From Aquimarina algicola (GTDB taxonomy: Bacteria > Bacteroidota > Bacteroidia > Flavobacteriales > Flavobacteriaceae), in NCBI RefSeq assembly GCF_006443095.1, contig NZ_VFWZ01000002.1, positions 1,488,001 to 1,552,000 on the forward strand: 64,000 nucleotides of DNA, read 5' to 3'. How positions within the stretch are numbered: the stretch's first letter is position 1; every line of letters begins with the position of its first letter. This document shows, piece after piece, positions 9,688-38,785 of this stretch. The translations under genes and the position numbers were made by a program. A model generated the notes under the pieces. That model worked only from the letters and a program-made list of their open reading frames with translations. It was not told the DNA's origin and ran no database searches.

Positions 9688-11046
9688 ATGAATCACAATA
9701 AAAACATAATAATTTTTCTCTTGATTTTAGTAGTCAATACAATACATGCTCAAAAATCATGGTCTCTAGATGACTGTATTGCTTATGCGATACATCATAA
9801 TCTTGAGTTAAAGAATTTTACGTATAGTCAAGATGAGAATCAAGAAACGTATCGACAATCTGTAAGAAGTTTATTGCCAAGTATAGACGCAGATGCAGAT
9901 TATGTAAAAAACTTTGGACGATCTCCAAACCCTAATACCAATGTCTTTGAAAACACCGAGTTTATTTCTAGTGACTATGGGTTGAATGCAGAGATTGATT
10001 TGTTTCAAGGATTTCAGAAAATGAACACGATAAAGGCGTCAAAGTTTTTATACAAAGCCTCGAACGAAGAAACACTTCATCAAAAATATATGTTGGCTTT
10101 CAGAGTAATGTCTGCTTTTTATGATATACAGTTTATGGAAGGGCTATTGGCAATTTCTAAAACACAAAAAGAGATTTCTCAAAACAATTACGATATGGTA
10201 AAAAGGCAAATAGAACTTGGTCAAATGGCAAAAGCAGACTTATACCAGGCAGAATCTGCATTGATTACAGACAAATTATCGGTAACTCAAAGTGAAAATA
10301 ATGTTACAGGGGCAAAGCTTAGGTTAATGCAAGAAATGAATTTGACAGAAGAATCTTCGATTTCTATCGTAACGACTCCAACAAAACCAATAGAAGAAGT
10401 ACATATTGAGATCAAGAATGAAGATTCTATCTATAATAAAGCAAAGGATTTTGTACCAATTCTAAAAGCTCAAGAACTTAGGGTAGAAGCGGCCAAAAAA
10501 CAATTGGCAGCTGTAAAAGGAAACCTGTACCCTTCTTTAACGCTTTTTGGAAGAATCAGATCTAGATTTGTAGATAATGCTCTAATTGAAGGAACAGATG
10601 AAACAGTATCTTTTAGAACACAATTAAAGGACAACACAGGTCAGGTAGTAGGACTTTCACTCAGAGTACCTATTAGTAATGGTTGGTCAAATAGATCAAG
10701 GGTTAAGCAACAAAAAATAGCAAAAATGCGTGCAGAGAATACTTACGAGATTCAAAAACAAGAAATGTATCAACTTATACAACAACTTGTACAAGAAGGC
10801 AAAGCATTAAAAACAGAATATCAGCAAAGCTATCAAAGAATGGAAGCACAAGAACTAACGTTTGAAATTGCTCAAAAAAGATATGAAAAAGGATTAATCA
10901 ACGCAATAGAATTAAATCAGTCAAAAAATCTTTTTGCAACATCACAAAATGAAAATTTGCAAGTGCAATTAAGATTAAAAGTAAACGAAAGTACATTAGA
11001 TTTTTATCAAGGGTTACCAGTATTTAACATAGACAAAGCACAATAA
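9688..11046 (+). CDS. TolC-family outer-membrane efflux protein
   Basis: A 452-residue outer-membrane factor with a signal peptide (hydrophobic 6-20, cleavage after HAQ at 22). It has the two repeated coiled-coil halves of TolC proteins: WSLDDCIAYAIHHNLEL at the start and repeated long amphipathic helices with QAES and ELNQSKN motifs at the ends of the halves. It would form the trimeric channel that takes substrate out of the cell. First gene of the exporter operon, 1 base before the HlyD gene and behind the sigma-54-like promoter. Confidence 0.93.
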   Translation: MNHNKNIIIFLLILVVNTIHAQKSWSLDDCIAYAIHHNLELKNFTYSQDENQETYRQSVRSLLPSIDADADYVKNFGRSPNPNTNVFENTEFISSDYGLNAEIDLFQGFQKMNTIKASKFLYKASNEETLHQKYMLAFRVMSAFYDIQFMEGLLAISKTQKEISQNNYDMVKRQIELGQMAKADLYQAESALITDKLSVTQSENNVTGAKLRLMQEMNLTEESSISIVTTPTKPIEEVHIEIKNEDSIYNKAKDFVPILKAQELRVEAAKKQLAAVKGNLYPSLTLFGRIRSRFVDNALIEGTDETVSFRTQLKDNTGQVVGLSLRVPISNGWSNRSRVKQQKIAKMRAENTYEIQKQEMYQLIQQLVQEGKALKTEYQQSYQRMEAQELTFEIAQKRYEKGLINAIELNQSKNLFATSQNENLQVQLRLKVNESTLDFYQGLPVFNIDKAQ

Positions 11047-11047
11047 G

Positions 11048-12298
11048 ATGGATATTAAAATAGAAAAGAAAAAAGGAGTAAGACCTAAACATTTTGGGTA
11101 TATCGTAATAGGTTTGGTAGTATTTTTTGTAGGGTGGAAAATGGTTTTTGGAAAATCAGCTTCTACATTTAGAACCGAAAAAGAAAAATTATCGATTGCA
11201 GAAGTATCTTTTGGAAAATTTGACGATTATATTACAATAAACGGTGCTGTCGCTCCAATAAGTACCATCTATATGGACGCTTATGAAGGAGGTAGAGTTA
11301 CAGAAAAACTTATAGAAGAAGGAGCAACAGTAAAAAAGGGAGATATTATCCTTAAACTCGAAAACAGAGCGCTGTATGAGCAAATTTTAGCCAGCGAAAA
11401 TAATCTGGCACTCAAACAAAATGACTTAAGGTCTACCAAACTTACATTCGATGCAAGACAAGTAGAAGGAAGAAAAGACCTTGTAAGTGCTAGATATGAT
11501 TTGCAAAGACTTAAAAGAAATTATGAGCAAAACAAATCTCTGTATGAAGAAGAATTGATTTCTAAAGAAGATTATTTGGTTGCCAAAGAAAATTACGAAC
11601 TTTCTCAAAAACAATTTGATATCATCAAAGTTCAGACAGAGCAAGATAGTGCTTTGCGTAACACCTCTTTGAGTGAGTTGGATACCGATCTTGCCAGAAT
11701 GAAAAAAACATTGTCTATGGTATATGAGCGTATTGATCACCTAAATGTAAGAGCTCCAGCCGATGGACAATTAGGATTTTTGGATGCAGAAATAGGGCAG
11801 AATATACGACAAGGGCAACGCATAGGTCAGGTAAATGTACTTACAGATTATAAAATAGAAGCAGAAATCGACGAACATTATATCGATCGTGTAAAAAGAG
11901 ATCTAACTGCAGTATTAGAACGTAATGGGAAAGAATATAAATTACGTCTTCGTAAAGTATATCCAGAAGTACGTAATGGTAAATTTAAAGTAGACTTAGT
12001 ATTTCTTGACCAGAAACCAGAAACCATAAGAAGTGGACAAAGCTATAATATCAAGCTACAATTAGGACAATCTAATGATGCTTTATTATTACCTAGAGGA
12101 AGCTTTTTTCAAAGCACAGGAGGGCAGTGGATATTTGTCTTAGACGCTTCCGGAGAAACTGCTTGGAGAAGATCAATTAGGATTGGGAAACAAAATTCGA
12201 GATATTATGAACTATTAGAAGGGTTAGAAGCTGGAGAAAAAGTAATAACTTCAAATTATGATAGCTTCGGAGAAGCCGAGAGAATAGTTTTAAAATAA
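11048..12298 (+). CDS. HlyD/MacA-type periplasmic adaptor
   Basis: A 416-residue membrane fusion protein. One N-terminal membrane anchor (about 17-34) is followed by a first lipoyl half (VTEKLIEEGATVKKGDIILKL region), a long alpha-helical hairpin (about 105-225), the second lipoyl half (NVRAPADGQLG), a beta-barrel and a membrane-proximal domain. It would bridge the inner-membrane permease and TolC. The order TolC-adaptor-ATPase-permease is that of MacAB-TolC-like exporters. One adaptor serves ten permeases in this operon. Confidence 0.93.
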   Translation: MDIKIEKKKGVRPKHFGYIVIGLVVFFVGWKMVFGKSASTFRTEKEKLSIAEVSFGKFDDYITINGAVAPISTIYMDAYEGGRVTEKLIEEGATVKKGDIILKLENRALYEQILASENNLALKQNDLRSTKLTFDARQVEGRKDLVSARYDLQRLKRNYEQNKSLYEEELISKEDYLVAKENYELSQKQFDIIKVQTEQDSALRNTSLSELDTDLARMKKTLSMVYERIDHLNVRAPADGQLGFLDAEIGQNIRQGQRIGQVNVLTDYKIEAEIDEHYIDRVKRDLTAVLERNGKEYKLRLRKVYPEVRNGKFKVDLVFLDQKPETIRSGQSYNIKLQLGQSNDALLLPRGSFFQSTGGQWIFVLDASGETAWRRSIRIGKQNSRYYELLEGLEAGEKVITSNYDSFGEAERIVLK

Positions 12299-12323
12299 AA
12301 TAATAAAAGAAAACAATCAAAAA

Positions 12324-13022
12324 ATGATACAGATACAAAATTTGAAAAAGAGTTTTAGAACAGAAGAAGTAGAAACTCTTGCCTTAAATAGTGTAAACCT
12401 TAAAGTAGAAACAGGAGAATTTGTTGCTATCATGGGGCCTTCAGGATGTGGTAAATCTACTTTGTTGAATATTATTGGGATGCTTGATAACCCAACAGAT
12501 GGTGCTTACTTTTTTAATGGAGAAGAAGTAGGCGGGCTTAAAGAAAACCAAAGAACCAAAATCAGAAAAGGAAATTTGGGATTTGTTTTTCAGAGTTTTA
12601 ACCTTATTGATGAACTAACGGTTTATGAAAATGTAGAACTTCCTCTTATTTATCTTAATATGAAAAAGAGTGAACGTCAGCAAAAAGTAAAAGAAGTGTT
12701 AGAACGTATGAAGATAGCACATCGAGAAAAACATTTCCCACAACAATTATCAGGAGGTCAGCAACAAAGAGTAGCAATAGCAAGGGCAGTAGTAACCAAT
12801 GCAAAACTAATCCTTGCTGATGAACCGACAGGTAATCTTGATTCTAAAAATGGTATAGAAGTAATGAACTTACTTACAGAACTTAATCAAGAAGGGACAA
12901 CCATCATAATGGTAACACACTCAGATAGAGATTCGCATTATGCTCATAGAGTAATCAACTTATTCGATGGTCAAATCGTAACAGAAAGCCAAAACAAACC
13001 TTTTGAAGTTAATGCACAATAA
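12324..13022 (+). CDS. ABC exporter ATPase (MacB/LolD type), first copy
   Basis: A 232-residue cytosolic nucleotide-binding protein. All motifs are intact: Walker A GPSGCGKST (38-46), signature LSGGQQQRVAIARA, Walker B LILADEP, D-loop GNLDS and switch His in VTHSD. It falls in the MacB/LolD branch, which powers MacB/FtsX-type permeases. The C-terminus runs about 12 residues past that of the second ATPase at 38123. It follows the adaptor gene by 25 bases. Confidence 0.95.
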   Translation: MIQIQNLKKSFRTEEVETLALNSVNLKVETGEFVAIMGPSGCGKSTLLNIIGMLDNPTDGAYFFNGEEVGGLKENQRTKIRKGNLGFVFQSFNLIDELTVYENVELPLIYLNMKKSERQQKVKEVLERMKIAHREKHFPQQLSGGQQQRVAIARAVVTNAKLILADEPTGNLDSKNGIEVMNLLTELNQEGTTIIMVTHSDRDSHYAHRVINLFDGQIVTESQNKPFEVNAQ

Positions 13023-13057: not shown

Positions 13058-13810
13058 ATGACAAAAATATCTCTATATCTCGTTTCAATAATTATATCAC
13101 TAATCACATATGTATCTGGTTTTTGCCAGTCAAAAACTATAGAAGTAAATGATTTTAATAAAGTGATTGTAAGCCCTCATATTCAGGTAACTTTCAAAGA
13201 AGGCGATAAAGAAGCTGTTACCATAGAAAGTGCACGCCTTCCTGAAGATAAAATCAATATCAAAGTAGTAGGAAAAACATTGAGAATATATCTTGATGGT
13301 GCTAAAATGGTTACTAAAAACGAAAAAATTAAAGAAAATGGATGGAAACGTAAACAATCAATATACAAAGGAACACAAGTTGTCGCAACAGTTACATATA
13401 AGAATCTTAAGGAACTTTCCGTACGAGGTGAAGAAATAATAGCTTGTGAAAGCAAGATTACACAACAGGATTTTAAATTAAAAATGTACGGAGAATGCAA
13501 AGTAACGCTTAACGCACTAGAGGTTAACATGTTCGATACAAATATGTATGGTGAGGGGTATCTGGAAATCAAAGAAGGCATGGCAAGCAAACAAAAATAT
13601 ACCGTGTATGGCGAGGGCGAAGTAAATACCCTTAATATGAGCAACGAAAACACAAAAATCACTGCCTATGGAGAAGGTAATTTTAGAATAAAAGTATCAG
13701 ATCAGTTAAAAGTGACCGCTTTTGGAGAAGCTACTGTAGCGTATAATGGAAACCCATCAATAAGTAGAGGAATCGTAATTGGAGAAGCTACCATCCAAAA
13801 AATGGATTAA
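13058..13810 (+). CDS. Secreted head-GIN-domain (DUF2807) protein
   Basis: A 250-residue exported protein: signal peptide to about residue 23 (SGFCQS), then a GIN/DUF2807 domain. The start VNDFNKVIVSPHIQVTFKEGD is typical of the family. The second half holds a run of evenly placed turns: KMYGEC, NMYGEG, TVYGEG, TAYGEG, TAFGEA and VIGEA, about 17-24 residues apart, which fits a parallel beta-helix. The function is unknown; members are described as putative adhesin-like proteins. It is embedded between the ATPase and the first permease, so it may be an accessory or cargo of the exporter. Confidence 0.85.
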   Translation: MTKISLYLVSIIISLITYVSGFCQSKTIEVNDFNKVIVSPHIQVTFKEGDKEAVTIESARLPEDKINIKVVGKTLRIYLDGAKMVTKNEKIKENGWKRKQSIYKGTQVVATVTYKNLKELSVRGEEIIACESKITQQDFKLKMYGECKVTLNALEVNMFDTNMYGEGYLEIKEGMASKQKYTVYGEGEVNTLNMSNENTKITAYGEGNFRIKVSDQLKVTAFGEATVAYNGNPSISRGIVIGEATIQKMD

Positions 13811-13860: not shown

Positions 13861-16236
13861 ATGTTTAAAAATTATATCAAGATCGCATGGAGAAACCTAT
13901 TGAAAAACAAAGTTTTTTCTATGATCAACATTTTTGGGTTGGCTATAGGTATTACGTGTGCAAGCCTTATCTTTCTTTGGGTTGAAGATGAATTAAATTT
14001 TAATAGCGTATTCGAAAAAGAAGATCAAGTATACTACGTGCCTACTAATCAAAGGTATGAAGGAGAATGGCGTACATTTTTTAGATCTACACCCGGACCT
14101 TTGGCAGAAGATATGAAAAATGAGATTCCTGGGATTATTAGATCAGTTAGAACAACTAAAAGTGAATTCTTATTTAAGGTAAACGAAAATTCTATAACCA
14201 AAACCGGGAGACATGCCGATCACGATATTTTTGAAATATTTGGACTATCTTTTATAGAAGGTAATGCACAAGAAGCATTTGCAAATCCAGAAGCCATAGT
14301 CTTAAGCAGAAAAACAGCAGATCAACTTTTTGGAGAAAACACAAAAGCCTTAGGTAAAGTCATTAAAGTTAATAACCTAGACAATTATGTAGTTACCGGG
14401 GTTATCGAAAACTTACCAGAAAATGTTACTTATACTTTTGATTGGATCGCTCCTTTTGAAAGGTATGCAATAGGAAAAGAATGGATGACAGAATACGGCA
14501 GTAATTTTGCAGACACCTTTGTAGAGCTTTCGCCAGAAGCAGATTTTGGAACAGTAGATGCCAAAGTACGCCAAATCATGCAAGAAAAAGATGAAGGAAA
14601 TGATACCTATGCCTTCTTACATTCAATGAAAGATTGGCATTTACGAGATAATTTTGAAGGAGGCAAGCGTGTCGGAGGACGTATCCTGTATGTTCGTTTA
14701 TTTTCGATCATAGCGTTTATTATCTTATTAATTGCCTGTATTAACTTCATGAACTTGGCTACTGCGCGAAGCGAAAAAAGAGCAAATGAGGTAGGCGTTC
14801 GTAAAGCATTAGGTTCTGGTAGGAAAAAAATAATAGTTCAGTTCATTTTTGAAGCTTTATTAATGACAACAATGGCAACAGGAGTGAGTATTATTTTCCT
14901 ATTGATATTGCTGCCACATTTTAATATTCTAATCGAGAAAAATTTAACCTTAGGGATATTAGAACCTCTCCATATAGGGTTTTTATTTGTAATTACCATA
15001 GTCTGTGGTTTCCTTGCAGGGGTATATCCCGCTTTTTACCTGTCTTCATTTAAACCGCTAGAAGTACTAAAAGGGATAAAAGTAACACATGGTGGCGCAT
15101 CTTTAATTCGAAAAGGATTGGTTATTGGTCAGTTTACGGTTTCGATTGTGTTTATTATCAGTACTATTTTAGTATATCAGCAAATCCAACATGTAAAAAG
15201 CCGAAGCCTAGGCTATGATAAAGAAAACCTGATCACAATGCGAGTTAAAGGAGATATGGTAAAAAACTTTACTGCAATCAAACACGATATGATCAATTCG
15301 GGGATGATTACCAATGTAGCATTAAATAGTTATGAAACTTTATCTGCTGGTAATAATGGGTCCGGAGTTCACTGGGATGGGATTGATCCAGAAAGTGATT
15401 TATTAGTCTCATACAGATACATAACCCCAGAGTTTTTATCAACGGCAGGAATGGAAATTATAAATGGTCGTGACTTTTATACAAACTCATTAGCCGACAC
15501 TACCAAAGTAGTCATTACAAAATCTCTCGCTCAACTCATAGATCAAAATAATGTAGTTGGAAAAATGATTGGATCCAGAGGTAAGCAAAGAGAGATTATT
15601 GGGGTGATAAACGATTATGTATATGGTGATATGTATGGAACCAGTGATCCTGTAATTTTCTTTTTCGACCCTGAGCAAGAAAATAAGAGGTTCAGCTACA
15701 GAAATATGTATGTAAAATCAAAGTCCGGAGCAGATATTACTCAAGTACTCTTAACAATGAAAGATATTATGTATAGACATAATCCGGCTTTTCCTTTTGA
15801 GTATAGTTTTGTGGATGATTCTTTTCATTCAAAATTCAAAAGTGAAATGTTGGTAGGAAAACTATCCAGAGTCTTTGCCATACTTGCAATCATTTTATCC
15901 TGTCTCGGTTTATTTGGTTTAGCAGCATATACTGCCGAGCAGCGCAATAAAGAGATAGGAATACGAAAAGTATTAGGAGCGAGTGTATTTGGAGTAGTTC
16001 GATTACTGTCAAAAGAATTTATTCGACTGGTTTTTCTGGCAATTCTCATTGCAATACCTCTAGCATGGTTGATGATGCAATATTGGTTAGAAAACTTTGC
16101 GTATCGAATTGAGATAAATTGGACAATCTTTTTACTAGCCGGTGTAATTGCAATTGGTATTGCTTTGATTACCGTAAGTTTTCAAGCAATAAAAGCAGCA
16201 ACATCAAATCCTGTAGATAGTTTACGCACAGAATAA
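13861..16236 (+). CDS. MacB/FtsX-type ABC permease 1 of 10
   Basis: A 791-residue inner-membrane permease. Membrane segments lie near residues 20-41, 280-302, 330-355, 372-398, 419-440, 670-690, 720-742 and 755-778, a 1+3+1+3 pattern: two MacB units fused. Periplasmic MacB_PCD-like domains fill 45-275 and 445-665. Cytosolic coupling motifs are RANEVGVRKALG (near 305-318) and NKEIGIRKVLGAS (near 695-710). The sequence before segment 6 is FVDDSFHSKF, a variant of the array-wide F-x-D-x-x-F box. It should export with the TolC/HlyD pair and the operon ATPases. Ends in the shared NPVDSLRTE. 50 bases after the GIN gene. Confidence 0.93.
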   Translation: MFKNYIKIAWRNLLKNKVFSMINIFGLAIGITCASLIFLWVEDELNFNSVFEKEDQVYYVPTNQRYEGEWRTFFRSTPGPLAEDMKNEIPGIIRSVRTTKSEFLFKVNENSITKTGRHADHDIFEIFGLSFIEGNAQEAFANPEAIVLSRKTADQLFGENTKALGKVIKVNNLDNYVVTGVIENLPENVTYTFDWIAPFERYAIGKEWMTEYGSNFADTFVELSPEADFGTVDAKVRQIMQEKDEGNDTYAFLHSMKDWHLRDNFEGGKRVGGRILYVRLFSIIAFIILLIACINFMNLATARSEKRANEVGVRKALGSGRKKIIVQFIFEALLMTTMATGVSIIFLLILLPHFNILIEKNLTLGILEPLHIGFLFVITIVCGFLAGVYPAFYLSSFKPLEVLKGIKVTHGGASLIRKGLVIGQFTVSIVFIISTILVYQQIQHVKSRSLGYDKENLITMRVKGDMVKNFTAIKHDMINSGMITNVALNSYETLSAGNNGSGVHWDGIDPESDLLVSYRYITPEFLSTAGMEIINGRDFYTNSLADTTKVVITKSLAQLIDQNNVVGKMIGSRGKQREIIGVINDYVYGDMYGTSDPVIFFFDPEQENKRFSYRNMYVKSKSGADITQVLLTMKDIMYRHNPAFPFEYSFVDDSFHSKFKSEMLVGKLSRVFAILAIILSCLGLFGLAAYTAEQRNKEIGIRKVLGASVFGVVRLLSKEFIRLVFLAILIAIPLAWLMMQYWLENFAYRIEINWTIFLLAGVIAIGIALITVSFQAIKAATSNPVDSLRTE

Positions 16237-16260: not shown

Positions 16261-18690
16261 ATGTTTAAAAATTATATCAAAATAGCGTGGAGAAGTCTTA
16301 AAAAATCACCGTTTTTTACTTTCTTAAATACTTTTGGACTTGCTGTTGGTATGGCAGGGGCATTAATTATGTCTTTGTATATCTACGATGAACTTAGCTT
16401 TGATACCATGTTTGCCGATGCTGATCGTATCTATAGAATAAATGCAGATATAAAATTTGGAGGAGAAGCCAATGAGTCAGCAGAAGTATCTGCACCGATG
16501 GCAGAAGCTCTCAAAAATGATTTTGGCCAAGTAGAAATGACGACCAGATTTAGAAATATTGGGAGTGTACTTATTAAAAAAAATAATACAAAAACCAATG
16601 TGAAAGAGCTTTCTGCTGCTTATGTCGATTCTACACTCTTTAAAATGTTCGGTATAGAGTTATTATATGGAGATGAAGCAACGGCTTTAACAAAACCCAA
16701 TACACTGATTCTGACCAAAACAGCGGCAGAAAAACATTTTAAGATAGAAGAAGCTGTCGGACAAGTTGTTGTATTAGAAAATTCAAATGCATATACCGTT
16801 ACTGGTATAATAGATGATTTACCTCAGAACTCTTTTCTTAGAGATCGAGGGGTTTTTATGGCGATGTCGGGATATGCAGATGCTCAAGAAAACGGATGGG
16901 TTAGCCATAACTATTTTACTTTCGTAAAGTTGATTGAAAATGCAGATATGAGTGCTTTTCAAGAACTTTTGCAATCAATGGTTGGTAAATATATAATACC
17001 ATATGCACAAAGAATTTATCCTGGTATTACAGAAGAGCAATTTGTCGCTTCAGGAAACTATTTGCGATATACTACTATTCCATTAACAGATATCCACTTA
17101 TATTCTGATAGATATACAGAGTTAAGCCCTAACAGTAGTATTCAAAATGTCTATATTTTGTCTTCTATAGGAATATTTTTAATCCTGTTGGCAAGTGTAA
17201 ATTTTATGAATTTATCTACAGCCCATTCATTAAAAAGAGCAAAAGAAGTTGGCGTAAGAAAAACGCTGGGATCACGTAGATTAGACCTAGTTAGGCAATT
17301 TTTGATAGAATCTTCAATGATTTCATTTTTTTCTCTGGTATTAGCTTTACTAATAACAGTCATAGTATTACCATTTTTTAATGAGCTTTCAGGAAAAGCA
17401 ATTGCTATACCATTTACAAACCCTGTTTTTTGGTTGTTATTGATGTTAATGACCATCATATTAGGGCTTTTTTCAGGAAGTTACCCCGCATTCTTTATGT
17501 CAAAGTTTATGCCTGTCAAAGTACTCAAAGGTACAGGGAGCGTAAAAGTAGGAGGAGGGCGTATAAGAAATGCTTTGGTGATTTTTCAATTTGCAATATC
17601 TGTGTTTTTGATTATGAGTACATTAGTTGTATTTCAACAACTGGATTTTATACAAAATAAAGATATTGGGTATGCCAAAGATCAAGTTTTAATTATTGAA
17701 GACATATATGCTGCAGGCAATCATGTAGAGTCCTTTAAGAAAGAAGTAATGCAACTTGGACAAGTAGAAAACGCATCTGTAAGTGGTTATCTACCAACAC
17801 CTTCTTATCGTAATGGTTCTACTTTTTTTAAAGATGGATCATCAGATCAAGAGGATGCAATCAGCATGCAAAAGTGGAAAGTAGATCATGAATATCTATC
17901 TACTTTAAATCTAGAATTGATTGCCGGGCGTGATTTTAATCGAGATTTTAGTGGGGATTCTACGGCAATGCTTTTAAATGAGTCTGCCATCAAAATTCTA
18001 GGGCTGAAACCCGAAGAAGCTATAGGAACTAGGATACAAGATTTGGATCAAGAAGACGAGAAACTTTTCACCGTAATAGGAGTAATTAAGAATTTTCATT
18101 TTGAATCACTGAGAAGTGATATCAATGCATTGAGCCTCTCTCTCGGAAAATCTAACGGTTATATGGCTGTAAAGCTAAACTCAGGTAATTTTTCGAATAC
18201 TATAGCAGATATAGAAAAAATTTGGGATAAGATTGCACCGGGGCAACCATTTAATTATCGTTTTATGGAAGACTCTTTTAATACTACATACAAAGCTGAG
18301 CAACGTTTGAGTCGAGTATTTATAGTATTCACAATATTATCTCTTCTCATCGCATGTCTTGGGTTATTTGGCTTGGCAACTTTTAATGCAGAAAAAAGAA
18401 CCAAAGAGATTGGAGTAAGAAAAGTAATGGGAGCCAATGTTTTTCAAATTACGTATAGGCTTACTGTAGATTTTCTTAAACTAGTTGGGATTGCAATCAT
18501 TTTTTCTCTGCCACTGGGATGGTATGCTATGACAAAATGGTTAGAGGATTTTGCATATCGAATAGAAATTGGTGTCGAAGTACTCATCATCGCAGCATTA
18601 TTGGCAATTATCATTTCTATCATTACAGTGAGTTATCAAAGTATAAAAGCTGCAATTGTAAATCCGGTAAAAAGTCTTAGAACAGAATAA
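16261..18690 (+). CDS. MacB/FtsX-type ABC permease 2 of 10
   Basis: An 809-residue permease with the same 1+3+1+3 membrane plan (first segment about 18-40, second about 297-318, fifth about 438-458, sixth about 686-708). Coupling motifs are RAKEVGVRKTLG (near 326) and TKEIGVRKVMGAN (near 711). The first periplasmic domain differs strongly from that of permease 1 while the ends are near identical, so the variable part is the periplasmic face. The box before segment 6 is FMEDSFNTTY. It begins 24 bases after permease 1 with the shared start MFKNYIKIAWR. Intact, ending NPVKSLRTE. Confidence 0.93.
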   Translation: MFKNYIKIAWRSLKKSPFFTFLNTFGLAVGMAGALIMSLYIYDELSFDTMFADADRIYRINADIKFGGEANESAEVSAPMAEALKNDFGQVEMTTRFRNIGSVLIKKNNTKTNVKELSAAYVDSTLFKMFGIELLYGDEATALTKPNTLILTKTAAEKHFKIEEAVGQVVVLENSNAYTVTGIIDDLPQNSFLRDRGVFMAMSGYADAQENGWVSHNYFTFVKLIENADMSAFQELLQSMVGKYIIPYAQRIYPGITEEQFVASGNYLRYTTIPLTDIHLYSDRYTELSPNSSIQNVYILSSIGIFLILLASVNFMNLSTAHSLKRAKEVGVRKTLGSRRLDLVRQFLIESSMISFFSLVLALLITVIVLPFFNELSGKAIAIPFTNPVFWLLLMLMTIILGLFSGSYPAFFMSKFMPVKVLKGTGSVKVGGGRIRNALVIFQFAISVFLIMSTLVVFQQLDFIQNKDIGYAKDQVLIIEDIYAAGNHVESFKKEVMQLGQVENASVSGYLPTPSYRNGSTFFKDGSSDQEDAISMQKWKVDHEYLSTLNLELIAGRDFNRDFSGDSTAMLLNESAIKILGLKPEEAIGTRIQDLDQEDEKLFTVIGVIKNFHFESLRSDINALSLSLGKSNGYMAVKLNSGNFSNTIADIEKIWDKIAPGQPFNYRFMEDSFNTTYKAEQRLSRVFIVFTILSLLIACLGLFGLATFNAEKRTKEIGVRKVMGANVFQITYRLTVDFLKLVGIAIIFSLPLGWYAMTKWLEDFAYRIEIGVEVLIIAALLAIIISIITVSYQSIKAAIVNPVKSLRTE

Positions 18691-26024: not shown

Positions 26025-26060
26025 AATTCATCAACATCATCATCAAAAAACGTGAGTCTT

Positions 26061-28442: not shown

Positions 28443-28464
28443 TGAAGATTAATCAGGAGTGACT

Positions 28465-30854: not shown

Positions 30855-33221
30855 ATGTTGAAACATCATCTTATCCTCTACATGAGGAGTATCAAAAAAT
30901 ATAAAATTCCCTTTATAATCAATATTATTGGGCTTTCTACAGCTTTAACTTGTAGTATATTAATTTATCTATGGGTGAGTGATGAGTTGCATGTAGATAA
31001 ATTCCATAAGCATCAAAACCAGATTTTTCATTTGATGGAAACTCTCGACTTTGCAGATGAAAAATCGGTAAGCCCACATACATCTGGTATTATAATACCT
31101 TTGTTAGTAGAAGAAATGCCAGAAATCGAGCAGGCAACTCGTGTAGCAAAATACCCTAAAAATGCTTCAATTTTTGTAGAAGACAAAACGATAAAAGCAG
31201 ATGGGTATTATGTGGGAAAAACGTTTTTTGATATTTTTTCTTTCCCAATTATTGAAGGAAATAAAAATACAATCTGGACGAATACCAATAGTATTTTATT
31301 GTCAGAGTCGCTTGCAAAAAATTTGTTTGGAACTACACAAAACGCAATCGGAAAAACAATAGACTTCCAAAAAAAGAAAAAATATGTTGTCTCAGGTATA
31401 TTCAAAGATGTACCTACAAAATCTTCAGAAAATTTTGATTTTGTTCTCTCTTATGAAGAACGAATACTTGTTCAACCCAATCTTATGGAATGGGGTAGTT
31501 CGGGTACTTATGCATATTTAAAAATGAAACCCGAAACAGATGTAGTGGCGTTTAATCTAAAAATAAAAGATTTTATAAAGCAGAAAACAAATAATGATCA
31601 AATATACCGAACTCCATTTCTAAAAAAATATTCTGATGAATATCTGTATGGTAACTATAAAGATGGTATACAGACAGGTGGTAGAATTACATATGTAAAA
31701 CTTTTTTCTATCATAGCTCTATTTATCTTGATTATTGCATGTATCAATTTTATGAATTTGTCTACAGCAAAAGTTTCAAGACGATTAAAAGAGATTGGGA
31801 TCAAAAAAGCGATTGGAGCAAGTAAAAAAACACTTGTTTTTCAATATTTGACAGAAGCAGTTGTACTAGCATTTATGGCGTTATTTCTTGCTATGATTTT
31901 TGTACTTCTATTACTTCCGGAGTTTAACCAAATAACGGGAAAACAACTTACAATTACTCTCGATAGTACACTTCTTATAGCATTATTGAGTATTACTTTG
32001 TTTACTGGTTTATTATCAGGAAGCTATCCCGCATTGTACTTATCAGGATTTAAGCCTGCTACTATTTTAAAAGGTAAATTAAATACTTCTGTTGGAGAAT
32101 TATGGACACGAAAAGGACTTGTAATTATACAATATACAATTTCTATCATTTTAATTGTGTCGGTACTGGTGATCTACAAACAAATTGAATTTATTCAAAA
32201 TAAAAATTTAGGATATTCTAAAGAGCAAGTGATTCATTTTGATCGAGAAGGAAAAACTCTTGATAATAATTATATCCATACTTTTTTGTCTGCATTAAAA
32301 AAAGTTCCCGGTGTAGTCAATGCTTCTTGCACACGTAATAGGATGACCGGTAATAGTTGGGAAGTTGGTGGATTTGATTGGGAAGGGAAAGATCCAAATG
32401 ACTATACTCAATTTGAGCACATGATAGCATACTATGATCTCATTGAAATGTTGAATATTGACGTCTTACAAGGAAGAGCCTTTTCTGAAAATTTTAAATC
32501 AGAAAATACTAAGGTGATTTTTAATGAAGCAGCCATTAATCATATGAATCTTAAAGATCCGGTAGGAAAAACAATTTCTTTTTGGGGAAAACAAAAAGAA
32601 ATCGTAGGGGTTGTCAAAAATTTTCATTTTCAATCATTGCATGAAGATATTAAACCGATGTTGATCAGTTTTTGGCCTGATAGACTCTCTAAGTTTATGG
32701 TGAAAATAGAAAAAGGAAGAGAAAAAGAAGCGATCGCTAACTTAAATACCTTTTACAAAGAATACAATCCTAACTTTTTGTTCGATTATAGTTTTCTTGA
32801 CGAAAACTACCAAAAATTATACTTATCAGAGCAGCGAATTGCAAAACTATCAAGATATTTTGCAGTATTGGCGATATTGATTTCATGTTTGGGGCTTTTT
32901 GGCTTGGTCTCTTTTACCGCAGAAAGAAGAAAGAAAGAAGTTGGTATCCGGAAAGTACTAGGAGACAGTAGCGCACATATTTCTTTTTTACTCTCTAAAG
33001 AATTTGTAAAACTTGTTTTGGTAGCGATCTGTTTGGGTCTACCTATAAGCTATGTCCTTACTAATAGCTGGCTATCAGGGTTTGCATATAATGCAGGAAC
33101 AAGTATATGGTATTTTTTGACCGCTGGTGCATTCGTATTAATTATCACTATCCTTACCGTAAGTACTCAAACTATAATTGCTGCCAATAGAAACCCTGTA
33201 GAAGCTTTGAAGGATGAATAA
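30855..33221 (+). CDS. MacB/FtsX-type ABC permease 8 of 10
   Basis: A 788-residue permease, fused-dimer plan. Its N-terminus (MLKHHLILYMRSIKKYK) is the most divergent of the set. Coupling motifs are LKEIGIKKAIGASK (near 309) and KKEVGIRKVLGDSS (near 692, with Asp after G). The box before segment 6 is FLDENYQKLY. Ends NPVEALKDE, a form shared in part with permease 10. Copies 7 and 8 both carry a GG-R-I-x-Y-V sequence just before the second membrane segment, suggesting they are close relatives. Confidence 0.92.
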   Translation: MLKHHLILYMRSIKKYKIPFIINIIGLSTALTCSILIYLWVSDELHVDKFHKHQNQIFHLMETLDFADEKSVSPHTSGIIIPLLVEEMPEIEQATRVAKYPKNASIFVEDKTIKADGYYVGKTFFDIFSFPIIEGNKNTIWTNTNSILLSESLAKNLFGTTQNAIGKTIDFQKKKKYVVSGIFKDVPTKSSENFDFVLSYEERILVQPNLMEWGSSGTYAYLKMKPETDVVAFNLKIKDFIKQKTNNDQIYRTPFLKKYSDEYLYGNYKDGIQTGGRITYVKLFSIIALFILIIACINFMNLSTAKVSRRLKEIGIKKAIGASKKTLVFQYLTEAVVLAFMALFLAMIFVLLLLPEFNQITGKQLTITLDSTLLIALLSITLFTGLLSGSYPALYLSGFKPATILKGKLNTSVGELWTRKGLVIIQYTISIILIVSVLVIYKQIEFIQNKNLGYSKEQVIHFDREGKTLDNNYIHTFLSALKKVPGVVNASCTRNRMTGNSWEVGGFDWEGKDPNDYTQFEHMIAYYDLIEMLNIDVLQGRAFSENFKSENTKVIFNEAAINHMNLKDPVGKTISFWGKQKEIVGVVKNFHFQSLHEDIKPMLISFWPDRLSKFMVKIEKGREKEAIANLNTFYKEYNPNFLFDYSFLDENYQKLYLSEQRIAKLSRYFAVLAILISCLGLFGLVSFTAERRKKEVGIRKVLGDSSAHISFLLSKEFVKLVLVAICLGLPISYVLTNSWLSGFAYNAGTSIWYFLTAGAFVLIITILTVSTQTIIAANRNPVEALKDE

Positions 33222-33242: not shown

Positions 33243-35630
33243 ATGTATATGAATTATCTAAAAATAGCGTGGAGAAACCTAAAAGGGAGTAAACTGTTTT
33301 CTGTAATCAATATTCTGGGTCTATCTATTGGTATTGCAGTTACTATAGTATTACTCTTGTATATACATGCAGAGCTTAGTTTCGACAAGATGTATACAAA
33401 TCAAGATCGTATCCATAGAGTGTTGTTGCATACCGAAGATGGTGTAGCAAAAGAAATTTGGACAGGAATTCCCTCTGCATTAAGCCCTGCTTTACAAAAT
33501 GAAATTCCTGAAATTGAATACGCATCAAGATTACTAAAACATGACTATGGTGGCAATGCTGCAATTATAAAAGCAAATCAAAAACATTTTTCAGAACAAA
33601 AATTGTATTGGGCAGATGCAGCATTATTTAAAATCTTTGATATTGAATTTATAGTGGGGCAGAGTACCACTATATTAAACGATCCCAATACTGTAGTGTT
33701 ATCAGAAAGTACCGCCCAAAAATATTTTGGGAATGATAACCCTTTGGGCAAACTTATTACACTTAATAATAGTGAGCAACTCGAAGTAAAAGGAGTTTTT
33801 AAAGATTTCCCCTCAAATAGCAGTCTAAGTTGTGATATAATTGTTTCATTTACATCACTACAGTACCATCTTAACCCAAGTTGGGGCAATGCAAGTTTTG
33901 AAACTTATTGTTTATTGAAACCTAACACTTTTGTTGATGATATACAACAAAGTATTCAGCAGATTGTAGACAAAAATATTCCAAAAGATGAGCAATGGTA
34001 CTCTTTTACATTACAACCTTTAGAACGTGTTCATTTATACTCAGCTTCTTATAAAGATAACTATTCAAGTAAAATAGGCGATATCAACGAAATCCAAAAC
34101 TTATCTTTTCTTGCCATTTTGATTTTACTTATCGCTTGTATTAATTACATGAACTTAATTACTGCCCATTCTCAAAAAAAAGCTAAAGATATAGGAGTCA
34201 ATAAAACATTAGGAGCGACTTCAAGAACATTGATATTTAGGTTTTATGTCGAAACAGCTTTACTTACTTGCATCGCTATGATTATAGGTATTGTGTTTAC
34301 TATTGTTATGCTACCTTTTTTTAATACTGTTTTTCAAAGTACCCTTGATATTGCGATGCTGGGGAATGTATATTTTATATTTGGAATGATCGTTATTTGG
34401 CTTATTGTTACTTTGATTGCCGGGTCTTATCCTGCTATTTTTTTATCAAAAGCTTCGACAGGGATGATGCTTAAGCCATCTTTTAGAATGGGAAAAAATA
34501 CGATTCTAGTTAGAAAAGGACTGGTAATTTTACAATTTGCAGCATCTGCAGTATTAATCGTAAGTGTGATCATCATGCATAAACAACTTCAATTTATGCA
34601 AAATAAGGAATTAGGTTTTGACCCCGAAAATGTAGTAGCGATACCTATAACTGCAATACAAACACCACAAAAACAACATACTTTGGTAAAAGCTTTTGAG
34701 TCTTTGGCTACTATATCTCATGTTACAAAAGCACAAGGATTTCCCAGTGTTGATGTAAGTGGAAATTCACTATCAAGAACTCAAGATTTTGCAACATATA
34801 TCGATATTAGATCAAATGCTGTAGATCCAAATTTTGTGGATGTACTAAAGCTTAACATGTTAGAAGGAAAGCGACTTTCTGAAAATAAGCAAGATGCTGA
34901 TACGATCAAAGAAATGGTACTTAATGCAAAGGCTGTGAAACAACTTGGATATGATATCAAAGAGGTTGTTGGTAAAAAAGTATATATGAATAATAGGATT
35001 TTTTATGTTGTAGGGGTAGTAAATGATTTTAATTTTTCTTCTTTACATATTCCTATTGGAGCCTATGCCTTTCATAATGGTACAAGAGAGTCCAAAAGAT
35101 ATCTTCTGGTGCGCACTACGGGATCAAATGTAAGCAGTTCAATACAACAGTTGGAAGCTACTTTTAAGAAGATAGCGCCAGATGCAATTTTTGAGTTTGA
35201 GTTTTTGAACAAGAGACTACAAAATCTATATACTTATGAGCAAAAGATTGCTCAAATTTATGTCATGTTTTGTGGTTTGGCGATTTTGATTGCTTGTCTA
35301 GGCCTTTTTGGATTGGCAGCTTTTACTGCAGAGCAACGTACCAAAGAAATTGGTATCAGAAAAGTCCTTGGAGCCAGCGTTACCAGAATTACACAAATGC
35401 TTTCACTTGATTTTGTCAAGTTGGTTTTGATAGCGATTATAATTGCTTTTCCTATTGCCATTTTGATCATGAACAATTGGCTTGAGAAATTTGCTTACAA
35501 AACAGATATAGGGTTGCATGTTTTTTTGAGCGCAGGTTTTATGATCCTTACTATAGCATTGATCACAATAAGCTCTCATGCTATTAAGGCTGCTATGCAA
35601 AACCCAGTAAAGAGTTTGAAAACAGAGTAG
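33243..35630 (+). CDS. MacB/FtsX-type ABC permease 9 of 10
   Basis: A 795-residue permease, fused-dimer plan. The first coupling motif is AKDIGVNKTLGATS (near 313): the Glu and the second Arg of the usual K-E-I-G-V-R-K are Asp and Asn. The second motif TKEIGIRKVLGASV (near 698) is canonical. The box before segment 6 reads FLNKRLQNLY, losing the Asp. These changes suggest an asymmetric ATPase contact. Starts 21 bases after permease 8; ends NPVKSLKTE. Confidence 0.92.
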   Translation: MYMNYLKIAWRNLKGSKLFSVINILGLSIGIAVTIVLLLYIHAELSFDKMYTNQDRIHRVLLHTEDGVAKEIWTGIPSALSPALQNEIPEIEYASRLLKHDYGGNAAIIKANQKHFSEQKLYWADAALFKIFDIEFIVGQSTTILNDPNTVVLSESTAQKYFGNDNPLGKLITLNNSEQLEVKGVFKDFPSNSSLSCDIIVSFTSLQYHLNPSWGNASFETYCLLKPNTFVDDIQQSIQQIVDKNIPKDEQWYSFTLQPLERVHLYSASYKDNYSSKIGDINEIQNLSFLAILILLIACINYMNLITAHSQKKAKDIGVNKTLGATSRTLIFRFYVETALLTCIAMIIGIVFTIVMLPFFNTVFQSTLDIAMLGNVYFIFGMIVIWLIVTLIAGSYPAIFLSKASTGMMLKPSFRMGKNTILVRKGLVILQFAASAVLIVSVIIMHKQLQFMQNKELGFDPENVVAIPITAIQTPQKQHTLVKAFESLATISHVTKAQGFPSVDVSGNSLSRTQDFATYIDIRSNAVDPNFVDVLKLNMLEGKRLSENKQDADTIKEMVLNAKAVKQLGYDIKEVVGKKVYMNNRIFYVVGVVNDFNFSSLHIPIGAYAFHNGTRESKRYLLVRTTGSNVSSSIQQLEATFKKIAPDAIFEFEFLNKRLQNLYTYEQKIAQIYVMFCGLAILIACLGLFGLAAFTAEQRTKEIGIRKVLGASVTRITQMLSLDFVKLVLIAIIIAFPIAILIMNNWLEKFAYKTDIGLHVFLSAGFMILTIALITISSHAIKAAMQNPVKSLKTE

Positions 35631-35669
35631 TAAATAGTCAATGAGTATTGATAATATTTTTAATGATGT

Positions 35670-38090
35670 ATGTATACTTTATATTTTAAAATAGCGGTCC
35701 GATATCTTTTTAAGAATAAATTGTATTCTTTTATCAATATCCTTGGATTAGCAATAGGAGTAACCTCTTTTATTCTAATCATGGTATATGTGAATTATGA
35801 ACGTAGTTTTGACCGTTTTCGAGGATCAGAAAATGTTTATAGAGTGTATATGGACTATTTGGAGGGAGATCAATATGTTCCCGGAGATGCACAGTCTTAT
35901 AACGCCATTGGACCTGCGTTTGCAAATGAGTTTCCCGAAGTACTGGATTATGTACGTTTTTATCGTTTTGGCGAAACCGTTTTGCAGCACAACGATAAGT
36001 TCTTCGAAGTAAACAATGGTAATCTTGCTGATCACTCATATTTTAAGGTTTTTGATAAACGTCTTATTAAAGGAGATATAAATACAGCATTACTTCAGCC
36101 TAATTCTATTGTGCTTACAGAAACGCTTGCGCAAAAAATATTTGGAGATCAAGATCCAATAGGTAAAACCATTACAATGTTTTATACCAAACCTTTGGTC
36201 ACTACCGTAACAGGGGTAATGAAGGATATTGCAGAAAACACACATTTTAAAATCAAGTATCTAATTTCTTTTGATACCATGAAATCCTGGGAAGGGTTCC
36301 CATCTCAACCGCGGTTAAATTGGAATTTGAATGAATATTTTACATATCTACACATTGACCCAAAAACTGATATAGCAGTATTGCAGGACAAAATTATAAA
36401 TAGCAATTTTGAATCAAATAGTGAGGAACGCCATAATATAGAACCCATAGAGGATATACACTTATACTCAAACAAACCTTATGAAGCAGAAGCCAATGGA
36501 AGCATTATGAGAGTGAAGTTTTTGACAGCAATTGCTTTTATCATTATTATTTTGTCATGGTTGAATTATATTAATCTGTCAACTACAAAATCAATGGAAC
36601 GCTCAAAAGAGATTGGAATACGAAAAGTATCGGGAGCACAAAAACGACAACTCATTTTGCAATCCCTTCTTGAATCGTTTATTTTAAATCTGTTAGCTAT
36701 TGGAATTGCAATTTTGATCGCTGTACTGATCATCCCATTATATAATTCGCTAACCGGTCATGTCTTAGAACTTGATTCGGCAATTGTCTTTAGAATTCTT
36801 CCGATACTCGGTATTTTGCTCCTTGGTATACTAATAGTTGGGTTGTATCCTGCGATAATACTAAGTAATTATTCTCCTTCCAAAGCATTAAAAGGAAAGA
36901 TAAGAGCTTCTGCAAATGGATTAAATGTGAGAAAAGGATTGATTATACTGCAATTTTTGGCAACTATAGTATTACTGGTAGGCACATTAGTAGTAAATAA
37001 ACAAATCAGGTTTATGCAAGATCAGCCGATTGGTTCTGATTTAAATAACATCATAGCAATTAGTGGAACGCTCCTAGAGAATAAAACAGATTCTTTGTTG
37101 GTAGATGATATGCTAACATTGCAACAAGAAGTAAACAAACTACCTTTTGTAAAAAGCGCTACGATTGCACAAACGTATCCCGGTGGAGGTTTTGAAGGGT
37201 TATCATCTTTTATGGGAATCACAAGGCCAGATGGAGTAGAAGAACAACATAATGTATATTATAATTATGACGTGCAGCCTAATTTCTTTGAAGTAATGGG
37301 GATCGAATTTCGAGCAGGAAATACATTTACATCTACCAGTAAAAGCAATGACAATAAAAATATAATTGTTAATGAGAACTTTATTAAAAAAATTGAAGCA
37401 AAAGGCGCACAAGAAGCCATTGGTAAAAAAGTAAAGTTTTGGGATAATGAGTGGACTATAATTGGAGTGATTAAAAATTATCATCACTTTGGGGTAAAAA
37501 TGCCTACAGTACCCATAATTTTTATAAATGGTTTTGATATCAGTAACTTACTAATAAAATTAGATGCTAATAGTACCTCGATTTCTGGGTACAATGATAT
37601 TATTGCTGACCTGAAACGTACATCAAAAAAGACGTTTTCAAACAGTATATTCAAAACCACTTTTATAGACAAAGAATTTCAAGCTCAATATCAAGAGGAT
37701 AAAAAATTTGGTGATGTATTCAACATATTTACATTATTGGCAATCATAATAGCAGGATTAGGGTTATTTGGGTTAACCTCATATACCTGTATACAACGTA
37801 GAAAAGAGATAGGTATTAGAAAAGTAAATGGCGCAAGTGTGTTTAAGATCCTTAAGCTTTTGAATATCGATTTTATAAAATGGATAGGTTTAGCATTTCT
37901 ACTAGCTATACCTATTGCTTGGTATAGTATGAATACATGGTTAGAAAATTTTGCAGTACGTACTACAATCGGAGTATGGACATATATATCTGCAGGTTTC
38001 ATAGCTTTATTGATTACTTTACTTACGGTAAGTTGGCAAAGTTTTAAAGCTGCTACGGATAACCCTGTCAAAGCTTTAAAAGACGATTAG
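35670..38090 (+). CDS. MacB/FtsX-type ABC permease 10 of 10
   Basis: An 806-residue permease, fused-dimer plan, last of the array. Coupling motifs are SKEIGIRKVSGAQK (near 311) and RKEIGIRKVNGASV (near 710); both replace the L before G (KVLG) with S or N, unlike most copies. The box before segment 6 is FIDKEFQAQY. The N-terminus is MYTLYFKIAVRYLFKNK. Ends NPVKALKDD. The second ATPase gene starts 32 bases later and may be its closest partner. Confidence 0.92.
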   Translation: MYTLYFKIAVRYLFKNKLYSFINILGLAIGVTSFILIMVYVNYERSFDRFRGSENVYRVYMDYLEGDQYVPGDAQSYNAIGPAFANEFPEVLDYVRFYRFGETVLQHNDKFFEVNNGNLADHSYFKVFDKRLIKGDINTALLQPNSIVLTETLAQKIFGDQDPIGKTITMFYTKPLVTTVTGVMKDIAENTHFKIKYLISFDTMKSWEGFPSQPRLNWNLNEYFTYLHIDPKTDIAVLQDKIINSNFESNSEERHNIEPIEDIHLYSNKPYEAEANGSIMRVKFLTAIAFIIIILSWLNYINLSTTKSMERSKEIGIRKVSGAQKRQLILQSLLESFILNLLAIGIAILIAVLIIPLYNSLTGHVLELDSAIVFRILPILGILLLGILIVGLYPAIILSNYSPSKALKGKIRASANGLNVRKGLIILQFLATIVLLVGTLVVNKQIRFMQDQPIGSDLNNIIAISGTLLENKTDSLLVDDMLTLQQEVNKLPFVKSATIAQTYPGGGFEGLSSFMGITRPDGVEEQHNVYYNYDVQPNFFEVMGIEFRAGNTFTSTSKSNDNKNIIVNENFIKKIEAKGAQEAIGKKVKFWDNEWTIIGVIKNYHHFGVKMPTVPIIFINGFDISNLLIKLDANSTSISGYNDIIADLKRTSKKTFSNSIFKTTFIDKEFQAQYQEDKKFGDVFNIFTLLAIIIAGLGLFGLTSYTCIQRRKEIGIRKVNGASVFKILKLLNIDFIKWIGLAFLLAIPIAWYSMNTWLENFAVRTTIGVWTYISAGFIALLITLLTVSWQSFKAATDNPVKALKDD

Positions 38091-38122
38091 AAAAACAATA
38101 TGGTAAATAAAAAAATAAAAAA

Positions 38123-38785
38123 ATGTTATTACAATTAAAAAACGTATCAAAATGGGTACAATCAGGAGGACAAAAGATTTCTTTGCTCAAAGACATTAAC
38201 TTTTGGGTTAATGAGGGTGATTTTATCTCTATTATGGGGCCATCAGGATCAGGAAAATCTACATTATTAAATGTTATAGGTATGTTAGACACCTTTAATG
38301 AAGGTGAATATACATTTTTGGATCAATCTGTTCACAAATTAAGAGAAAAACACCGTTCTAATCTATACAAACAGTATATGGGGTTTGTTTTTCAATCCTA
38401 CCACTTAATCGATGAATTAACGGTAAAAGAAAATTTAGAAATGCCATTATTATATAAAAAATATAACTCTTCTGAACGAAAAGCTTTGGTAGCCGATATA
38501 TTGGATCAGTTTAATATTGTAGGTAAAAAAGATCTTTTTCCAACCCAATTGAGCGGAGGACAACAACAATTAGTAGGTATTGCACGAGCACTTATTGCAA
38601 GTCCAAAATTAATTCTTGCAGACGAACCTACAGGAAATCTTAACTCTAAGCAAGGTGAGGAAATTATGGAGACTTTTAAAGAGCTTAATAAGCAAGGAGT
38701 TACGATTATACAGGTTACACATTCAGAAAAAAATGCACAATATGGCTCGAGAGTCATTAATTTGCTAGATGGTAGTATTGTATAG
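38123..38785 (+). CDS. ABC exporter ATPase (MacB/LolD type), second copy
   Basis: A 220-residue ATPase closing the operon. Walker [10 protein letters not shown] (38-46), Walker B LILADEP and the switch His in VTHSE are intact. The signature reads [14 protein letters not shown] instead of QQQRVAIARA, and the D-loop reads GNLNS where the first ATPase has GNLDS. These changes suggest a specialised, perhaps less active, partner. It may form homodimers for some permeases or a heterodimer with the 12324 ATPase on the two unequal halves of each fused permease. Confidence 0.93.

Follow-up and report, generated by a model that had tools for sequence, protein, structure and literature searches.

A constant operon frame with a changing set of MacB-like permeases in Aquimarina algicola and its relatives: a predicted modular exporter

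The operon described here, from a marine bacterium, probably encodes a modular exporter of the tripartite kind. One channel, one adaptor and two ATPases are predicted to be common to ten interchangeable permeases, each of which would define a different substrate. The permeases are likely exchangeable specificity cartridges of one exporter, since related genomes keep the common parts but differ in the permease set.

The permease array in A. algicola

The window, i.e., the whole stretch of 64,000 nucleotides that was analysed, contains the following features.

6750..8102, minus: sensor histidine kinase, 450 aa (HATPase_c; one hydrophobic segment above threshold)
8102..9469, minus: NtrC-type sigma-54 response regulator (REC, Sigma54_activat, Fis HTH)
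9526..9564: predicted enhancer site TGTAAAA-N25-TTTTACA (palindrome recurs in most frame-A arrays)
9629..9642, plus: sigma-54-like promoter element TGGCACGGCATTAG (motif recurs across arrays)
9688..11046, plus: TolC-type outer membrane factor (PF02321, 5.1e-47)
11048..12298, plus: HlyD/MacA-type periplasmic adaptor (PF13437; DarC model below cut-off)
12324..13022, plus: ATPase-1, D-loop NLD (PF00005)
13058..13810, plus: GIN/DUF2807 (Toastrack) protein, hydrophobic signal-peptide-like start (PF10988, 4.8e-38; hydropathy)
13861..16236, plus: permease P1, family 8 (Pfam MacB_PCD and FtsX, two stretches each)
16261..18690, plus: permease P2, family 1 (ORF listing, cross-array comparison)
18676..18754, plus: junction repeat copy 1, 79 nt (identical to 21100-21178)
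18721..21114, plus: permease P3, family 11 (ORF listing; exact 79-nt repeat on either side)
21100..21178, plus: junction repeat copy 2, 79 nt (identical to copy 1; the pair flanks P3)
21145..23574, plus: permease P4, family 7 (ORF listing, cross-array comparison)
23598..26024, plus: permease P5, family 3 (ORF listing, cross-array comparison)
26052..28442, plus: permease P6, family 4 (alternative ATG start, 26061)
28459..30825, plus: permease P7, no family partner at 50% identity (alternative ATG start, 28465)
30855..33221, plus: permease P8, family 9 (ORF listing, cross-array comparison)
33243..35630, plus: permease P9, family 15 (ORF listing, cross-array comparison)
35670..38090, plus: permease P10, family 5 (Pfam MacB_PCD and FtsX)
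38123..38785, plus: ATPase-2, D-loop NLN, own signature motif (PF00005)

Between positions 13861 and 38090 of the plus strand, ten intact permease frames follow one another head to tail, with 788-809 aa and 16-39 bp between neighbours as called in the ORF listing. With the internal ATG starts at 26061 and 28465, P6 and P7 comprise 793 and 786 aa, respectively, and the values of the initial annotation (786-809 residues, 21-39 bases apart) are reproduced. Ten 2.4-kb frames of the same family in series are not a matter of chance. Pfam agrees with the gene order given earlier, in which TolC, HlyD, ATPase-1 and GIN bracket the permease row on one side and ATPase-2 on the other.

Pairwise identity among the ten permeases ranges from 28.7 to 40.2%. 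A whole-genome scan with the PF12704 profile matched 10/10 of them, eight in both halves, with one of the eight second-half matches below the curated cut-off; the Pfam domain scan, which covered the first and the last permease (P1 and P10), revealed MacB_PCD plus FtsX. Each of the ten chains has eight hydrophobic segments as well as two periplasmic domains and is thus a fused pair of MacB-like halves. Per-domain alignment bears out the earlier statement that the periplasmic domains differ: they are 24-26% identical, compared with 38-48% for the FtsX parts. Fold matches of a structural model of P1 were YbbAP, MacB, LolCDE, FtsX and also BceB. The marks of the type VII (MacB) superfamily are present in the form of Pfam scores over cut-off and the fold of the P1 model, and the predicted exporter is best read as a novel form within the MacB-type (type VII) exporters.

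The permease array would be read as a single transcript. No terminator-like site among those listed falls into a gap between permeases, and the frequency of sigma-70 promoter-like and terminator-like sites is no different from that in shuffled sequence. Scanning the window for Rfam families and tRNA gave no match, and Pfam scans of 20 flanking proteins yielded no recognisable peptide-biosynthesis genes. The tripartite-pump genes HlyD and OEP lie within the operon, and likewise within the frame of other genomes. Outside the array, the genome shows five further HlyD matches, all weak; the array could also work with ATPases or adaptors from other loci of the genome.

Constant frame and changing permease sets in relatives

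With the permease profile, 14 of 28 relatives were matched at a threshold of E 1e-30, and 35 of 120 family genomes at the stricter E 1e-60 (no more than eight candidates scored per genome in each case). The HlyD profile, also used at E 1e-60, matched 89 of 296 genomes of the phylum. In the genus, arrays were taken from ten genomes; G005, G007, and G011, with 2-3 matches, were left out. The locus sample consists of the best 80 of 419 confirmed loci, with 50 chosen, 47 used, and 45 extended to ATPase-2. The 57 arrays compared comprise 52 arrays of frame A and five of frame B, whose second adaptor type is approximately 39% identical to the frame-A adaptor; L088 (without ATPase-2) and L040 (array in two places) are excluded. 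Permease families were built by single linkage at 50% identity, and the within-family identity medians are therefore biased upwards. Permease trees were computed under LG+G4, with no mixture model.

The same frame occurs in many Flavobacteriaceae, and looser forms are dispersed across the Bacteroidota. An oddity restricted to the A. algicola genome was thus rejected, arrays being found in relatives, family and phylum genomes. The adaptors of the 52 frame-A arrays are at least 74.8% identical, whereas their permeases, 3 to 18 per array, constitute 52 different sets with no family in all. Along this line, 18 Aquimarina arrays show 18 contents without any common family. The place of the GIN/DUF2807 gene is not constant across arrays either. 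In 444 of 444 cases a permease finds its best match in another array, never in its own; when near relatives are left out, an own-array best match appears for at most 4 of the 444, and recent tandem duplication was rejected on these counts. Decay of permease copies was rejected as well, broken copies amounting to ten fragments in 3 of the 57 arrays and none in the window; where they occur, such copies weigh against the modular reading.

These comparisons bear on the initial annotation, whose interpretation is partly supported overall. Its emphasis on ten copies was too narrow: Bacteroidota frequently have arrays of this kind, and a row of ten is therefore nothing unusual by itself. The annotation would have been refuted by homologous arrays that are always split, with an own adaptor and ATPase for each permease, and the arrays compared do not show this pattern. 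The proposed interchangeability of the permeases agrees with the same frame and differing sets in the 52 arrays, and with four cytosolic motif residues conserved in all 444 permeases, while the mixed complexes proposed alongside are unneeded, given that a single permease chain already unites two MacB-like halves. Neither ATPase-2 as a distinct type nor the turnover of sets between species was included in that reading.

Exchange is not free, because the order of genes is retained in part (the majority order holds for 85% of pair observations versus 64% after shuffling) and content tracks relatedness (Spearman 0.45 between permease content and adaptor identity). Free random shuffling of permeases was rejected on account of the order. 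Of the 417 frame-A permeases, only 150 have their best match in the array whose adaptor is nearest, although that array may lack the family altogether. The same permease families sit next to both adaptor types, and permease identities across the two types are of the size typical within one type; the nearest relative of P1 is located in a frame-B array.

In 31 of 32 phylum loci (selected by HlyD and picked from the 89), one-permease loci included, ATPase-1 is the gene immediately after HlyD. Together with the well conserved adaptor in frame A, this argues against independent two-part transporters, YbbAP- or Lol-like, in which the ATPases would be common and adaptor and TolC used by only one or two permeases. 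We consider such an arrangement unlikely, even though YbbAP is the nearest full-length fold of the P1 model and a passage of PMC5985334 counts YbbAP among TEP-independent MacB homologues with unknown function.

Two types of ATPase

The D-loop Asp of ATPase-1 is present in 57 of 57 arrays, and ATPase-2 carries Asn in 56 of 56; among the listed matches of ATPase-2 homologues (8000 scored), 120 of 120 have the Asn. The position occupied by Asp in ATPase-1 is N or H in ATPase-2. With D-loop and signature differences fixed, there are two ATPase types, one with substituted motifs, as in asymmetric exporters, and ATPase-1 and ATPase-2 likely form an asymmetric pair. No covariation was found between the ATPase-1 Walker A and the presence of ATPase-2. 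The D-loop change need not matter, because transport by ABCG5/G8 is unaffected by D-loop mutations (PMC7756269).

Frame-A arrays were cut at ATPase-2, and its presence there is therefore no independent count; the independent count is 46 of 47. Outside the main frame, ATPase-2 occurs in 16 of 19 arrays with at least three permeases versus 0 of 12 smaller arrays (Fisher's test, relatedness ignored). This table of 31 arrays omits the phylum loci G307, G243, G438, G379, G309, and G442, which are unfinished or whose permeases are not in view; ATPase-2 lies downstream of the array in G309 and G442 and away from it in G379 and G438. For the 12 loci that do not reach three permeases, an ATPase-2-type gene was identified elsewhere in three genomes (G383, G336, and G464), and none in the other nine. 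ATPase-2 is not strictly needed, because the arrays of G475, G462, G291, and Lutibacter L088, all with at least three permeases, exist without it in place. G462 and G291 encode it elsewhere in the genome, whereas a search of the G475 genome found no ATPase-2 and L088 gave no ATPase-2 match.

Junction repeats and exchange of permease genes

Exact repeats of 40-79 nt surround exactly one permease in seven arrays. The junctions consist of coding ends plus spacer, which suggests homologous recombination: single permease genes would be gained or lost by recombination at the conserved stop-spacer-start junctions, and the set would change. A plug-in exporter of integron-like kind, in which permease genes swap at these junctions while the head (regulator, channel, adaptor, and ATPase-1) and the tail (ATPase-2) stay fixed, and every permease runs on an asymmetric motor whose ATPase-2 has lost the D-loop Asp, is a tentative proposal that we regard as possible rather than probable. 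If it holds, each species has its own hand of export specificities, with a pool of at least 50 permease families. In its working, such an array would resemble integron cassette arrays (constant frame, variable and partly ordered set) and differ from them in its junctions of coding ends plus spacer.

Ancient paralogues under vertical birth and death with loss only, i.e., neither cassette exchange nor functional modularity, would account for the old age of the permease families, the partly conserved order, and the growth of content likeness with adaptor identity. We judge this explanation quite improbable in view of families beside two adaptor types with identities as within one type, exact repeats around single permeases, and the missing common family in Aquimarina.

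Divergent regulator and promoter

The NtrC-type regulator is 75-89% identical across frame-A loci. Of the 52 frame-A arrays, 39 contain the TGTAAAA/TTTTACA palindrome, 38 of them with the spacer of 25 bp, as against 0 of 5 frame-B arrays and a shuffled mean of 0.035. The sigma-54-like motif was detected in 40 of the 57 arrays, compared with a mean of 0.07 after shuffling and 0 for the reversed control; only part of these 40 have the C that is usual at -12. Three exact copies of the palindrome exist genome-wide, hence it is not unique; in the search for a dedicated regulon site elsewhere in the genome, up to one mismatch gave 30 matches versus 19 for the reversed pattern.

In 78 of 80 loci the neighbouring divergent gene encodes the histidine kinase, while the remaining two end before the kinase position. 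This constancy would suit BceAB-like sensing, in which envelope-active peptides would be recognised by the permeases and reported to the kinase next door, export being secondary; BceB is among the fold matches of P1, and many differing periplasmic domains suit many ligands. Sensing as the main role is nevertheless very improbable in our opinion, since HlyD and the outer membrane factor in the frame are superfluous for it, and BceB, according to a passage of PMC5985334, has one extracytoplasmic domain, in contrast to two in the array permeases.

Proposed function and implications

In the modular exporter that we favour, each permease would sit on an ATPase-1:ATPase-2 pair and take up its substrate from the periplasm or the outer leaflet. 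MacB-type pumps work by a mechanotransmission cycle, and expulsion from permease via HlyD to TolC would follow such a cycle. The kinase/NtrC regulator, with an envelope or toxin signal as presumed trigger, would turn on the whole set via the enhancer site and the sigma-54-like promoter. Because permease sets turn over so fast, our best guess for candidate substrates is toxic peptides or lipophilic antimicrobials.

If this is correct, the permease can be the modular part of an ABC exporter, whose specificity is altered by a one-gene swap on a common adaptor and motor, and the numerous copies of FtsX-type (ADOP-like) permeases in Bacteroidota gain a role. The arrays would then provide a natural swap experiment for the substrate-choosing parts of MacB-type permeases, and array content would be a readable record of the compounds met by each species. 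The fixed D-loop change of ATPase-2 is a directly testable claim on asymmetric motors in type VII transporters.

Relation to known systems

With MacAB-TolC the array shares MacB_PCD plus FtsX, a MacA/HlyD-type adaptor, and a TolC-type channel; it differs by separate ATPases of two types, two halves fused per chain, and, in the main frame, 3-18 permeases to one adaptor. MacB in the strict sense, an ATPase fused to a dimerising 4-TM half permease, does not describe the array proteins.

The darobactin exporter DarBCD has one permease per system. Top NCBIfam models are DarC for the adaptor and DarD for both ATPases, with DarB second for the permeases, yet all bit scores (DarB 141.4 and 88.7, DarC 207.4, DarD 295 and 252.9) fall below the equivalog cut-offs of 700, 450, and 375, respectively. 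The best NCBIfam match of the permeases is ADOP (TIGR03434), alike in two-half length and alignment; P1 (333.9 bits) and P10 (248.8), the two that were scanned, stay below its cut-off of 622.3, and the array genes, unlike ADOP, are not orphans.

E. coli YbbAP likewise has two fused MacB halves and two periplasmic domains; the array locus differs in its many permeases and two ATPase types. For YbbP, a passage of PMC5985334 gives two linking TM helices, as against the eight hydrophobic segments found here.

No description of such permease arrays was found among the literature matches listed, subscription papers being outside the scope. The nearest publication is PMC11573002, whose Dyadobacter passage leaves arrays unmentioned and gives 28 and 33 copies of the 'acidobacterial duplicated orphan permease' gene for two Dyadobacter genomes.

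Array frame across relatives

A HlyD search yielded 80 named loci (the best of 419 confirmed, 78-89% identity), the titles of most of which give Flavobacteriaceae genera. All 80 loci contain an outer membrane factor (OMF), HlyD, ATPase-1 and one or more permeases, and the divergent kinase was seen in 78, the remaining two ending before the kinase position. An ATPase-2 orthologue (78-90% identity) occurs in 46 of the 47 genomes searched, and in 45 of the 47 it lies downstream of HlyD on the same strand, 10.5-45.2 kb away. The exporter system is not universal in the family or the phylum; at E 1e-60, permease profile matches were found in 35 of 120 family genomes (at most eight candidates scored per genome) and HlyD matches in 89 of 296 phylum genomes. 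One relative (genome G243, locus L159) has HlyD, ATPase-1 and ATPase-2, with no permease within the 20 kb read.

Permease content and junctions

We assembled 57 arrays, 52 with the layout of the window (frame A) and five with a second layout from the genus (frame B). Their 444 full permeases fall into 54 families by single linkage at 50% identity, 17 of them singletons. The best match of each permease is located in another array (444/444), and for 440 of the 444 it still lies outside the own array once arrays with adaptors at least 86% identical are excluded. Frame-A arrays carry 3 to 18 permeases (median 8) and reveal 52 distinct contents in 52 arrays, drawn from 53 families, none of which is common to all. 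The 18 arrays counted as Aquimarina likewise show 18 distinct contents and share no family throughout. Gene order is partly conserved, the majority order being found in 85% of pair observations versus 64% after shuffling. Permease loss by decay does occur, since three arrays (L021, L049 and L066, with extensions) carry broken copies, 10 fragment frames altogether, six of these in A. algiphila. The position of the GIN/Toastrack gene varies: it precedes the permeases in many frame-A arrays, sits among them in A. longa, and is close to the array end in frame B as well as in F. pacifica; in other arrays it was not found.

Gaps between permeases have a median of 26 bp and measure 60 bp or less in 329 of 387 cases (overlaps from early start calls included), and the junctions have coding ends and spacer in common. 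In the window, the junctions between the second and third (P2/P3) and the third and fourth permeases (P3/P4) are identical over 79 of 79 nt (18676-18754 and 21100-21178). This repeat spans stop codon, spacer and start, whereas the flanking genes share only 35-36% identity. Of the 1446 junction pairs in the whole array set, 7 pairs from 7 arrays share an exact block of at least 40 nt. All seven flank exactly one permease, as 23% of pairs would by chance (p 3e-5), and such blocks are absent from 1833 internal control pairs. The window junction sequence is matched in 31 of 52 genus genomes, its own counted. We infer from these sequences that the junction repeats are traces of single genes inserted or excised through recombination at junctions; gene conversion of junctions is an alternative.

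Permeases beside two adaptors

Adaptors of frame B share on average 37-39% identity with those of frame A, compared with 46-48.5% for the regulators, 64-70% for ATPase-1 and 75-81% for ATPase-2. Three of the five frame-B loci have an OMF after ATPase-2 rather than at the front. Permeases of one family show a median identity of 58.7% between frames, which matches the level of same-family permeases in frame-A arrays with 78-82% identical adaptors (median 59.7%). The nearest match to P1, the first window permease, comes from a frame-B array (65.9% identity); the corresponding adaptors are 35% identical. In the family-8 tree, P1 and four frame-B sequences form a supported group (97/100) nested inside frame-A sequences; in the family-11 tree the frame-B nesting lacks good support. 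The permeases may have moved, or the adaptors next to them may have been exchanged; in either case a single permease type has been retained with two adaptors.

The ten window permeases differ most in their first and second periplasmic domains (mean pairwise identity 25.9% and 24.0%). Their two FtsX parts average 38.3% and 48.4%, and two cytosolic KEIG-R-LG motifs, which we take to be the ATPase-coupling motifs of the permease family, reach 48.0% and 58.8%. Four residues are invariant over 444 permeases (G318, E331, R702 and G706, P1 numbering). On account of these identities and residues, the presumed motor-facing parts are kept and the periplasm-facing parts are variable. This pattern is expected if the permeases share motors but differ in substrate; a general constraint acting on membrane parts could equally produce it.

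Two ATPase types

ATPase-1 and ATPase-2 of the window are 51% identical, and each kind averages 84-86% identity among arrays. The D-loop carries aspartate in ATPase-1 of 57/57 arrays and asparagine in ATPase-2 of 56/56, and the residue after LSGGQQQ is R in ATPase-1 versus L in ATPase-2. Within 32 further Bacteroidota loci the ATPase-1 residue is always D, and that of ATPase-2 is N or H in 14/14 and in 9/9 more; beyond the 57 arrays the ATPase-2 signature position usually holds L, with V, I or M in some cases. All 120 ATPase-2 homologues listed (of 8000 scored) have N in the D-loop, and the best four solved relatives among those listed, 5xu1 and three MJ0796 forms, have D. Among the points made in a review (PMC7756269), the D-loop is located at the ATPase dimer interface, an Asp/Asn difference altered dimerisation of the TAP1 (ABCB2) domain, and in asymmetric exporters the Asp may be missing from one side only; D-loop mutations in ABCG5/G8 were without effect.

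Among loci outside frame A, the array includes ATPase-2 in 16 of the 19 that have at least three permeases and in none of the 12 that have one or two (Fisher p 3e-6, ignoring relatedness of loci). In A. pacifica the array is split over two places, ATPase-2 and two permeases being on the other contig. We read the pair as an asymmetric motor accompanying multi-permease arrays, in which the two ATPases would form a heterodimer.

Predicted control of the array

Two elements precede the array:
9526-9564, palindrome TGTAAAA-N25-TTTTACA
9629-9642, TGGCAY-N4-WTAG element

The palindrome motif occurs in 39 of 52 frame-A and none of 5 frame-B arrays (shuffled mean 0.035), and the second motif in 40 of 57 arrays against a shuffled mean of 0.07; only some of these arrays have the usual C at -12. 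Together with the NtrC-type regulator, both elements fit a predicted enhancer-driven sigma-54 transcription of the entire array. The terminator-like sites listed all fall outside the gaps between permeases. PMC11237479 unites DUF2807 (GIN) with DUF4097 and DUF2154 in the Toastrack fold group and ties this group to envelope-stress (PSP/Lia) operons; this link of the GIN protein hints at envelope stress as a possible cue.

Placement and neighbouring genes

The components are of known kinds, namely type VII permeases, a HlyD adaptor and a TolC channel. By our tests the array parts fall outside DarBCD and the permeases are not MacB members in the strict sense; the first and last permeases, which were scored against ADOP, lie below its cut-off. 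The apparent novelty is in how the parts are arranged and how this arrangement evolves: head and tail are fixed, the permease set between them varies and seems to recombine, and the additional ATPase-2 has a fixed D-loop change.

After ATPase-2, window 38790-39250 is AT-rich with many irregular AAAATTT/TTAAAC-like words, in which Tandem Repeats Finder calls no repeat. It is followed by:
39273-40835, minus strand, CarboxypepD_reg-like domain protein
42491-46126, minus strand, fusion of an ABC-2 type membrane protein with an M1 peptidase domain (1211 aa from the called TTG start)
46090-46974, minus strand, ABC ATPase adjoining the fusion

A pair similar to the fusion and its ATPase in size and layout follows the array in four relatives' genomes (G001, G002, G004 and G015). 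Five genus loci and L036 have the CarboxypepD_reg-like gene after the array and oriented against it, and in A. pacifica it is located together with ATPase-2 on the other contig.
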